Position numbers and translations under genes: made by a program | Part shown: positions 24,890-27,919 of the stretch, piece by piece | Position numbering within the stretch: position 1 is the first letter of the stretch | Layout: each line of letters starts with the position of its first letter | Assembly (NCBI GenBank): GCA_944323475.1 | Contig: CALUSQ010000002.1 | Span: 1 to 64,000, forward strand | DNA length: 64,000 bases | From: Candidatus Gastranaerophilales bacterium | GTDB lineage: Bacteria; Cyanobacteriota; Vampirovibrionia; Gastranaerophilales; Gastranaerophilaceae | Direction of reading: 5' to 3' | Notes under the pieces: generated by a model | What the model was told of the DNA's origin: nothing | The model's database searches: none | The model's input: the letters and a program-made list of their open reading frames with translations, nothing else

Positions 24890-25618
24890 ATGAAAAAGTT
24901 ATTAATTACATTGTTTTTATTTTGTTTGCCTATTCTTTGTTCCGCTGCTAATGCTATAACAATTACAGAAAAAAACATGGGATATGTGTCTGTTAATACA
25001 TCTGCTACCAAAGAAGTTGTTCCTGATACTGCTTCAGTGTATTTTTCCGTTGAAACAGTAGCTAAAGATTCAAAAACTGCAGTAAACAAGAATAAAGAAA
25101 TTACTGCAGCGCTCATTCTTGCTTTGAAACCAATACTTGCTTTAGACAATTCAGATTCAATTCAAACAAGAAACTTTATACTTAAACCAAATTATGCTGT
25201 AGATAAAAGCGGTAAAAAAACTTTCCAAAATTATACAACATCAAATACAATTTTTGTAAAAACTAAAAATTTAGATAATGTATCAAAACTTATTGATACG
25301 GCAGTTGCCAACAATGTTACTAATGTTGGTCAAATAAATTTCTATATTGAAAATGAAAAACAATACACAAATGAACTTGCAAAAGAAGCTATAAATAAAG
25401 CAAAAGTAATTGCAGATCTAACAGCAAATACATTAAATCAAAAGGTTAAAGGGATAAAAGCTATAAGTGTAAATATATATACTAACAATCAATACGCACA
25501 AAATTCACCGACCTTATTTGCTTCTAAAGCTTCAGGTGGGGTAAAATCATCCACACCGATAGAATATGGTAAAATTAAATTACAAGCTAACGTCAATGCA
25601 GAATTTTATGTGAAATAA
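24890..25618 (+). CDS. SIMPL (DUF541) domain periplasmic protein
   Basis: A 242-residue secreted protein. A signal peptide of about 22 residues (core LFLFCLPILC, cleavage near ANA) precedes a SIMPL domain: VSVNTSATKEVVPDTASVYF, YTTSNTIFVKTKNLDNVSKL and AINKAKVIADLTANTLNQKV. Family members such as YggE form ring oligomers and affect oxidative or envelope stress, but the molecular role is unclear. It overlaps the hisC-fusion start by one base (TAATG). A Cys within the signal peptide (LPILCSA) could make it a lipoprotein; this is uncertain. Confidence 0.85.
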   Translation: MKKLLITLFLFCLPILCSAANAITITEKNMGYVSVNTSATKEVVPDTASVYFSVETVAKDSKTAVNKNKEITAALILALKPILALDNSDSIQTRNFILKPNYAVDKSGKKTFQNYTTSNTIFVKTKNLDNVSKLIDTAVANNVTNVGQINFYIENEKQYTNELAKEAINKAKVIADLTANTLNQKVKGIKAISVNIYTNNQYAQNSPTLFASKASGGVKSSTPIEYGKIKLQANVNAEFYVK

Positions 25619-27366
25619 TGATAAAACCAAGAGAAGAACTTAATAGTATAAAAATATATGATATTCCTTTATATCCTGACGCTTTGGATATGAAGCTTGA
25701 TTCTAACGAAAACTACATTGGTCCTTCTACTGCTGTTATGAGAGCTCTAAAGGAAATTACTCCTGAGGATATTTCGCATTATCCTTGTTATGGTAAATTG
25801 TACGAAATATTAGCAGAAATTAATAAACTTGATTTGAATCAGTTGGTTATTACAAATGGCGCAGATGAGGCTTTATCAGCTGTTTTAAATACTTATATTT
25901 CTAAAAACGATATAGTGTTGAATGTTTCACCGTCTTTTGTTATGCCTAAAATTTATTCAAATATTATTGGCGCAAACTATATTGAAATTCCTTACGAAAT
26001 ACGATGGGAGTATCCTTATAAGAGTGTTATAGCTGCTATTGAACAGTACAGGCCTAAATTATTAATTATAACAACTCCAAATAATCCAACAGGAGATATT
26101 GTCAACAGAGCATATATAGAAGAGTTGTTAAACAAATACCCTTATATGTTATTTCTAGTTGATGAGACTTATGCAAATTTTGCAGGGATTTCAAATATTG
26201 ATTTGATTAATAATTATGACAATATAATTATCGTAAAATCATTGTCTAAAGACAATGCCCTTGCAGGTTTACGTCTTGGCTATGTGGCTTCAGATAGTAA
26301 AAATATATCTTTTATAAAAAGAGTTTTGAGCCCGTATAATGTCAATGTTGCTGCTGTTACGGCAGCTGTTGCTTGTCTTAGTGACAGTAGATATTTTGAA
26401 TATGTTTCAAAAGAAATTCAAAAATCAAAAGAGTATATAATATCAGAGTTGGAAAAACTTTCTGCAATAGTATACAAATCATATGCGAATTTTATTTTAG
26501 TTGATTTTGGCAGTCGCTCTGAGCTTGTGTACAATATGTTAAAAGCCAATAAAATTGCTGTTAAGTCTTTTAGTCAGCCTGCAGAATTAAAAAATTGTTT
26601 GCGAATAACATTGCCTACATACACTGCTGCTCAAAGACTTATTGCAAAAATTAAAACAAAAATTACTATAGTTTTTGATATGGATGGTGTGCTGGTTGAT
26701 GTCAGTAAATCATATCATGAGTCTATTAAGTATACATATAACTATTTTACGGGTAAACATATTACTGATGAGCAAATATTTGATGCTAAGAAAAGAGGCG
26801 GGCTTAACAATGATTGGGATTTAACCTCTTATTTGATAAAACAGTCTGGGTTTGATTTTGATTATAATAAAATTGTTGATGTTTTTCAAAGTCAGTATTG
26901 GAATGATGGCAGAGGATCTATAAACAAAGAAATTTTGTTAATAGATACTGATATGCTGGAAAAGCTTTCTAAAAAATACAACCTTGCAGTTTTTACTGGT
27001 AGACCTAGACAGGAAGCTATTTTTACTTTGAGTAAATTTAACATAAAACAATATTTTTCAAAAATAGTTACTATGGATGATTTGCCTTTTGATAAACAAA
27101 AACCCAATAATGATGGTCTTTTATTGATAAAAGATTCATTTGTTACTGACTTCTTAATATATTTTGGTGATACAGTTGATGATGCTAAATGTGCATCAAG
27201 CTTTGCTGGTGCATATGGTGTCGGTGTATTGCCGCCTAATAATAAATCACCTGAATTAAAAGATCTTCTTTTGAAATCTGGAGCAAAATCTGTTATAAAT
27301 AATATCAATGAACTAAATACCGTATTGGAGAGTATTGATAATGAGAATAAGCAAAATTGTACGTAA
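25618..27366 (+). CDS. hisC: Histidinol-phosphate aminotransferase fused to a HAD phosphatase
   Basis: A 582-residue fusion. Residues 1 to about 345 are a HisC-type class II aminotransferase: LDSNENYIGPS, YPCYGKLYEIL, TNGADEALSAVL, TTPNNPTGDI, LVDETYANF, and the PLP lysine in VKSLSKDNALAGLRLGYV. From about 350 a HAD IA domain begins with VFDMDGVLVDVSKSY (nucleophile and acid Asp), then FTGRPRQEA (motif II), a lysine in FDKQKP and GDTVDDAKCA (motif IV). HisC yields histidinol phosphate, and the next step needs a phosphatase, so the fused domain is a good candidate. It overlaps hisB by 26 bases. Confidence 0.88.
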   Translation: MIKPREELNSIKIYDIPLYPDALDMKLDSNENYIGPSTAVMRALKEITPEDISHYPCYGKLYEILAEINKLDLNQLVITNGADEALSAVLNTYISKNDIVLNVSPSFVMPKIYSNIIGANYIEIPYEIRWEYPYKSVIAAIEQYRPKLLIITTPNNPTGDIVNRAYIEELLNKYPYMLFLVDETYANFAGISNIDLINNYDNIIIVKSLSKDNALAGLRLGYVASDSKNISFIKRVLSPYNVNVAAVTAAVACLSDSRYFEYVSKEIQKSKEYIISELEKLSAIVYKSYANFILVDFGSRSELVYNMLKANKIAVKSFSQPAELKNCLRITLPTYTAAQRLIAKIKTKITIVFDMDGVLVDVSKSYHESIKYTYNYFTGKHITDEQIFDAKKRGGLNNDWDLTSYLIKQSGFDFDYNKIVDVFQSQYWNDGRGSINKEILLIDTDMLEKLSKKYNLAVFTGRPRQEAIFTLSKFNIKQYFSKIVTMDDLPFDKQKPNNDGLLLIKDSFVTDFLIYFGDTVDDAKCASSFAGAYGVGVLPPNNKSPELKDLLLKSGAKSVINNINELNTVLESIDNENKQNCT

Positions 27367-27919
27367 TACTAAAGAAACACAGGTTACCGTTGAATTAAAT
27401 ATTGATGGTACAGGAGTTTATGATATTAAAACTGATTTTAAATTTTTTAAGCATATGCTTGAACAGTTTGCTTTTCATTCAAAACTTGATTTAAAAATCA
27501 TAGCAGATTCTTTAGATGGTGATGAACACCATTTAGTCGAGGATGTTGCATTAGCCCTAGGTAGCTCATTTAAGGAGGCAATTTCTGATAAAATAGGTAT
27601 AAATAGATACGGGCAATGTATTTTGCCAATGGATGATGCATTAGTGCTCTCTGCTGTAGATTTTTCAGGTAGAGCATATTCAAAATTAGATTTGAATATT
27701 TCTGCTGAAAAAATATCTGATTTTTCTACAATACTTTTACCACACTTTTTTAATAGTTTTGCACAAAATAGTTTGATGACAATACATGTTAAACAACTTG
27801 ATGGGCTTGACCCACACCACATTGTAGAAGCTTCTTTTAAAGCATTTGCTCGTGCTATAGCTCAAGCTGTTCAAAAAAATACTTCTGCTGATGTTCCTTC
27901 AACTAAAGGTGTTTTATAA
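27341..27919 (+). CDS. hisB: Imidazoleglycerol-phosphate dehydratase
   Basis: HisB dehydrates IGP, two steps before histidinol. The 192 residues carry the manganese-binding repeats: FFKHMLEQFAFHS, DEHHLVEDVALALG, FFNSFAQNS and DPHHIVEASFKAFARA. It is monofunctional, without the N-terminal phosphatase domain of E. coli HisB, in agreement with the phosphatase being fused to HisC here. The ATG at 27341 is preferred over the TTG at 27335. Confidence 0.95.
   Translation: MRISKIVRNTKETQVTVELNIDGTGVYDIKTDFKFFKHMLEQFAFHSKLDLKIIADSLDGDEHHLVEDVALALGSSFKEAISDKIGINRYGQCILPMDDALVLSAVDFSGRAYSKLDLNISAEKISDFSTILLPHFFNSFAQNSLMTIHVKQLDGLDPHHIVEASFKAFARAIAQAVQKNTSADVPSTKGVL

Follow-up and report, generated by a model that had tools for sequence, protein, structure and literature searches.

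Histidine biosynthesis needs a phosphatase after the aminotransferase HisC, and this enzyme is often non-orthologous between lineages. Which protein removes the phosphate in Candidatus Gastranaerophilales bacterium? We have analyzed a window of 64,000 nt from contig CALUSQ010000002.1 of this bacterium, in which a gene coding for a HisC domain fused to a HAD phosphatase domain is followed by hisB. Our analysis indicates that the fusion is very probably a bifunctional enzyme of histidine biosynthesis, HisC and histidinol-phosphate phosphatase (HolPase) in one predicted protein. The HolPase step is the commonest low-confidence step in the automated annotation of amino acid pathways, found in 28% of 148 prototrophs (PMC7311316).

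The fusion gene

Positions 25618-27366 are one open frame of 582 codons, from an ATG at 25618 to a stop codon at 27364-27366. This and all other features of the window described here are on the forward strand. The ORF and the HMM matches predict a bifunctional histidinol-phosphate aminotransferase/histidinol-phosphate phosphatase of 582 amino acids. The aminotransferase domain (aa 1-346, 25618-26655) matches TIGR01141 and PF00155, and has the SLSKD motif with the PLP lysine and the NPTG motif expected in fold-type I enzymes. The TIGR01141 (HisC) match covers aa 5-346 with 250.3 bits (E 2.4e-74), below the cut-off of 276.55: this half is probably HisC, as its best match and the his context suggest. 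The second domain (aa 349-582, 26662-27363) is a HAD-IA phosphatase with a C1 cap, as indicated by PF13419, TIGR01548 (116.9 bits) and an AF2 model.

The set of HAD motifs is complete. The catalytic D354-M-D356 (26677-26685), with the predicted nucleophile and acid/base, is followed by G-V and is invariant in our alignment A1. Motif II is T460-G-R (aa 460-462, 26995-27003), motif III is K495-P496 (27100-27105) and motif IV is GDTVDD (aa 517-522, 27166-27183), which contains D518, D521 and D522. Motifs II to IV were located from sequence motifs and the same alignment.

The next gene is hisB (27341-27919), coding for a monofunctional imidazoleglycerol-phosphate dehydratase whose sole domain match is PF00475 (178 bits). 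Its likely start is the ATG at 27341, inside the end of the fusion gene, which gives a 26 bp overlap; in the ORF list it starts at an upstream TTG, at 27335. On the other side there is a SIMPL/DUF541 gene (24890-25618, PF04402, 130.9 bits), whose stop codon shares one base with the ATG of the fusion (TAATG). Co-transcription of this gene with the fusion and the his genes is possible. The initial annotation had described a HisC-HAD fusion which keeps all HAD catalytic motifs and precedes a hisB without phosphatase domain: these three points, together with the coordinates, are confirmed.

Homologous fusion ORFs of about 570-610 amino acids are found in many independent genomes. Those of the same genus have 54-57% amino acid identity in the HisC domain and 62-67% in the HAD domain; wherever dS can be estimated, dN is much lower. 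Taken together, these data show that the fused frame is not a product of chance or of assembly.

The HAD domain and its family

The best specific match of the HAD domain is TIGR01548 (HAD-SF-IA-hyp1, from cyanobacteria and haloarchaea), which covers aa 351-524 with 113.8-116.9 bits (E about 1e-33). Pfam HAD_2 also matches. The initial annotation had suggested that the domain and TIGR01548 might be the same group. They have in common the HAD motifs and N[ND]DW as cap signature, and both are found by the joint alignment A1, but 116.9 bits are below the cut-off of 140.2, which makes the domain a divergent relative rather than a formal member of TIGR01548. Cyanobacterial and haloarchaeal members carry insertions which are absent from the window domain, and the latter is fused to HisC. 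The function label of TIGR01548 in NCBIfam release 20 is still "hypoth_equivalog".

As a family profile we have used alignment A1, which contains 15 diverse sequences. Searches of genomes with this profile give a bimodal distribution: full-length members score 195-295 bits (one partial member, 125 bits), other HADs 70 bits or less. Besides the catalytic residues, S365, G394, N397, D399, W400 and E438 are invariant in the 15 members. Four of these residues (G394, N397, D399 and W400, invariant across phyla) are part of the cap signature, which in the window is GGLNNDW (aa 394-400, 26797-26817). In our alignments N[ND]DW separates the window domain and TIGR01548 from other HAD-IA proteins. This GxxN-x-DW set in the cap would be a natural candidate for substrate recognition.

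The AF2 model of the domain (pLDDT 95.3, pTM 0.89) has a Rossmann-like core with a helical cap between motifs I and II, as in HAD-IA proteins, and the motifs are also those of this subfamily: DxD, T/S, K and an acidic motif IV. The nearest solved folds are C1-cap HAD phosphatases and mutases, such as 3kbb, 2fdr, 2hsz and 6iah (Z 20-22), a likeness of predicted fold which does not indicate the substrate. Generic HAD models (phosphoglycolate phosphatase, beta-PGM) only match weakly. No match of the isolated domain to TIGR01261 or TIGR01656 (HisB-N/GmhB, HAD-IIIA) was found at E <= 0.001.

Other candidate phosphatases in the source genome

The source genome (1.84 Mb, 94% complete, a draft in 45 contigs) contains both hisG (C8) and hisD (C10). 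HisN (TIGR02067) gave no match in it. The best match to PHP HisJ (TIGR01856) has 23.6 bits, compared to a cut-off of 90.2, and this protein is most similar to RNase RNM/3',5'-nucleoside bisphosphate phosphatase. The only HADs similar to HisB-N or GmhB are two GmhB domains over the TIGR01656 cut-off. One of them is part of a GmhA-GmhB fusion which adjoins an HldE-like ORF (L036:1432-2481), the other is fused to a sugar-nucleotidyltransferase of the NTP-transferase type (L035:766-2046). We have set aside these GmhB domains and the PHP protein because of their architecture (heptose-type fusions, a PHP which is not HisJ), which does not disprove them: the GmhB proteins could have HolPase side activity. 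The absence of HisN, a PHP protein other than HisJ and the heptose-type fusions leave the fused HAD as the only dedicated HolPase candidate. The initial annotation had suggested to check that no PHP-type or HisN histidinol phosphatase is encoded elsewhere in the genome; none was found in these searches.

Distribution in the class Vampirovibrionia

We have surveyed 240 genomes of the class, 84 of which contain hisD; 78 of these 84 were tested for PHP. The HAD family is found in 51 hisD+ genomes and PHP HisJ over the cut-off in 20, while 13 have neither. None of the 78 tested genomes has both. The HAD is fused to HisC in the 51 genomes, except for some members of family f3. All PHP HisJ genomes belong to families f5, f6 and f7, where the HAD is absent. 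The exclusion between HAD and PHP in the 78 genomes has a Fisher p of 1.1e-10, uncorrected for phylogeny, a value which is too optimistic because related genomes do not count as independent. The same pattern is also seen when the families are considered one by one. In the genus of the source genome, all four hisD+ genomes have the fusion and none of the seven hisD- genomes does.

The alternation between HAD and PHP is an incomplete rule, since 13 hisD+ genomes have neither. Nine of them belong to f3 (G030, G055, G067, G091, G111, G127, G129, G144 and G148); all nine have IMPase-type matches, and a HisN-type enzyme may serve in them. The remaining four are G231, G237, G058 and G113, which is fragmentary. 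Two of these, G231 and G237 (family f1), contain hisD and hisG, and neither a HAD of this family nor PHP HisJ nor HisN was found in them. The HisD of G237 has a TIGR00069 score much above those of its relatives and may have been acquired horizontally.

Genomes without the pathway

Most hisD- relatives have no HAD of this family. Four exceptions were found in the family of the source genome, three of them with catalytic residues lost. These three genomes (G167, G172 and G185, from a single genus) keep the fusion ORF in the absence of both hisD and hisG (L089:8089-9825, L090:4122-5852 and L091:4855-6633). All three have N in place of the nucleophile D (DxD to NxD), GS for GD in motif IV and a disrupted cap signature; in G185 the HisC lysine is missing as well. 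These broken motifs suggest that loss of the pathway goes with a predicted loss of HAD catalysis. The ORFs appear to be under purifying selection (omega 0.09-0.34, a rough estimate as dS > 1), so that they may serve another task. The fourth exception, G171, has neither hisD nor hisG and carries a standalone HAD with intact motifs (L088:3600-4355), which possibly acts on another substrate. The hisD+ fusions we have inspected keep the catalytic motifs, if GN is allowed for GD in motif IV of f3, f4 and f9.

Operon context and other phyla

An IGPD-like (hisB) ORF is found directly 3' of the fusion in 23 of the 26 hisD+ loci checked in f1 and f2. Gene order in f3 and f4 is hisG-hisC::HAD-hisB-hisH-hisF-hisA-hisD, and the stretch read in an f9 genome (G008) is hisG-hisC::HAD-hisB-hisH. 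Some genomes have separate genes: in one f3 genome (G119) the HAD occupies the place of the fusion, after hisG and before hisB, and hisC is found at the opposite end of the operon; HAD and hisC are likewise split in G080. The his genes at the f3, f4 and f9 loci and in other phyla were assigned by motifs and by blastp/HMM comparison, rather than by curated models for every ORF.

Other phyla were scanned in named genomes, with a DNA pattern derived from the DxDG and N[ND]DW motifs. This pattern selects GC-rich codons, so that the scan is a sample and not a census. It gave at least 120 loci; among the loci listed, 111 reach 120 bits or more with the family profile. If haloarchaea and cyanobacteria are excluded, 29 of 38 listed loci adjoin his genes, and in 14 of these 29 the HAD is fused to hisC. 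Among the same listed loci, fusions in his context are found in Gemmatimonadota, Myxococcota, Planctomycetota, Sumerlaeota and others, in most Acidobacteriota an unfused HAD gene is flanked by hisC and hisB, and Rhodothermota also carry the family.

In the HAD tree, the window clade groups with the standalone HADs of Acidobacteriota (97/88), apart from the f3, f4 and f9 fusions. Fusions appear in at least three clades, both in the HAD tree and in the HisC tree. Repeated fusion of HisC and HAD would be the simplest reading of these trees; they are not firmly rooted, so a single old fusion with later splits is also possible.

Haloferax and cyanobacteria

Among 14 named control genomes, a strong TIGR01548 match was only found in Synechococcus elongatus and Haloferax volcanii. 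Both species have been reported to lack an identified HolPase (PMC7311316 for S. elongatus, PMC8305020 for H. volcanii). Standalone homologues are common in cyanobacteria, and a single standalone TIGR01548 gene is present in all 15 Haloferax genomes. Insertion mutants of HVO_0431, a HAD hydrolase gene of H. volcanii, are histidine auxotrophs (PMC4300041), and this gene has been proposed as HolPase candidate (PMC8305020). Is HVO_0431 the TIGR01548 gene? In the four Haloferax genomes examined, pheA, which corresponds to HVO_0449 of H. volcanii, is found at a distance of about 10-11 kb from the TIGR01548 gene. The number of genes between them does not precisely reproduce the distance between the tags HVO_0431 and HVO_0449. 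The TIGR01548 gene is the only ORF with HAD motifs in a 40-kb stretch of one of these genomes (G399), and the only plausible one in another (G402). From this synteny and the lack of other HAD-motif ORFs there, HVO_0431 is probably the haloarchaeal orthologue of the window HAD, an assignment by gene position and not by the H. volcanii sequence. HVO_0431 is standalone and away from hisC, the window HAD is fused to HisC.

Rhodothermota are a similar case: no PHP, HisN or GmhB homologue was found in those examined in PMC8305728.

Three minor observations may be added. In Table 5 of PMC4300041 the integration site of the HVO_0431 mutant (1,198,248) is only 5 bp from that of HVO_1312, probably an error in the table. 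A MAG labelled Bifidobacterium breve contains a TIGR01548 gene of cyanobacterial type (L168), and is probably mislabelled or a contaminated bin. A tblastn search with a cyanobacterial TIGR01548 protein against plasmids gave no match.

Proposed function and alternative explanations

The initial annotation had proposed a probable histidinol-phosphate phosphatase. This prediction is supported by the mutual exclusion with PHP HisJ, the joint loss with the pathway, the operons of other phyla and the probable link to histidine auxotrophy in Haloferax. With the exceptions given above, the HAD occurs together with histidine biosynthesis in genomes without another HolPase, as expected for EC 3.1.3.15. 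Architecture, motifs, predicted fold, genomic context and phyletic complementarity point to the following substrate and mechanism. The HisC domain would transaminate imidazole-acetol phosphate to histidinol phosphate. The HAD domain would then dephosphorylate histidinol phosphate, with D354 forming an aspartyl-phosphate, D356 acting as acid/base and D354, D521 and D522 binding Mg2+, and the product, histidinol, would pass to HisD. A benefit of the fusion, such as substrate channelling, may be supposed.

An alternative is that the HAD is a generic phosphatase, or one with a different specificity (phosphoglycolate, sugar phosphate or PLP), joined to HisC by chance or for some other reason, and that one of the two GmhB-type HADs is the HolPase. 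The weak matches to phosphoglycolate phosphatase and beta-PGM models would agree with it, as would the nearest folds, which are beta-PGM/PGPase-like. The GmhB domains of the source genome exceed the TIGR01656 cut-off, and bifunctional GmhB has been proposed for other bacteria (PMC8305728). Cyanobacterial HADs have also been tested as phosphoglycolate phosphatases (PMC6278635), a possible rival reading for TIGR01548. Nevertheless, we consider this explanation unlikely: fusion or adjacency to his genes recurs in many phyla, the alternation with PHP HisJ in the class is strict, the HAD is absent or catalytically broken in most genomes without the pathway, and the GmhB domains belong to heptose-type fusions.

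The HAD might also be catalytically competent and have a mainly regulatory or structural role for HisC. The three hisD- relatives with a broken HAD retained on HisC under apparent purifying selection show that the domain can have non-catalytic value. As an explanation for the window gene this is highly improbable: catalytic motifs are conserved in the inspected hisD+ fusions (with the GN variant), and the operons of f3 relatives and Acidobacteriota can encode the HAD separately. Finally, two neighbouring genes might have been joined by a fault of assembly or a frameshift, which is conceivable in a draft genome. This explanation has a negligible probability and is refuted by independent genomes, as more than 40 others in the class, and also other phyla, have the same fusion.

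Returning to a HolPase role, it is likely that the HADs which carry GxxN-x-DW in the cap form a single, ancient and largely unrecognized HolPase family, which would fill the histidine gap in cyanobacteria, haloarchaea, Acidobacteriota, Rhodothermota, Gemmatimonadota and non-photosynthetic relatives of Cyanobacteriota, and which would have been fused to HisC more than once to give a two-step enzyme. A concrete family of HolPase candidates can now be told from other HADs by a short cap motif and a profile of 15 sequences, and its fusion to HisC provides a clear, testable functional assignment. If this assignment is correct, predictions of histidine auxotrophy would be corrected in cyanobacterial relatives, in which the presence of the fusion varies with that of the pathway.

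Comparison with known systems

Our literature search found no paper on TIGR01548 as HolPase or on a HisC-HAD fusion. The N-terminal HolPase domain of E. coli HisB (DDDD type) also belongs to the HAD superfamily, has the same predicted reaction and is fused to a histidine enzyme. It is a GmhB-related domain of subfamily IIIA with HisB as partner, whereas the window HAD is of subfamily IA and its partner is HisC. As a HAD-type HolPase, the enzyme predicted here differs in HAD subfamily and is fused to HisC; the HVO_0431 proposal anticipates it in part. HisJ (PHP type) and HisN (IMPase type) have the same predicted reaction and unrelated folds.

The best phmmer match in the PDB is Tt82 from Thermococcus thioreducens (6iah; Z 20.7, 30% identity over 197 residues), whose cap motif GSFGDDF is partly similar to GGLNNDW. 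An archaeal HAD HolPase from T. onnurineus, which is cited in PMC5516325, might also be related. A similar arrangement is found in Acinetobacter MtlD (7oct), which combines mannitol-1-phosphate dehydrogenase with a HAD phosphatase acting on its product. Its HAD fold resembles that of the window domain, while pathway, domain order and substrate are different.
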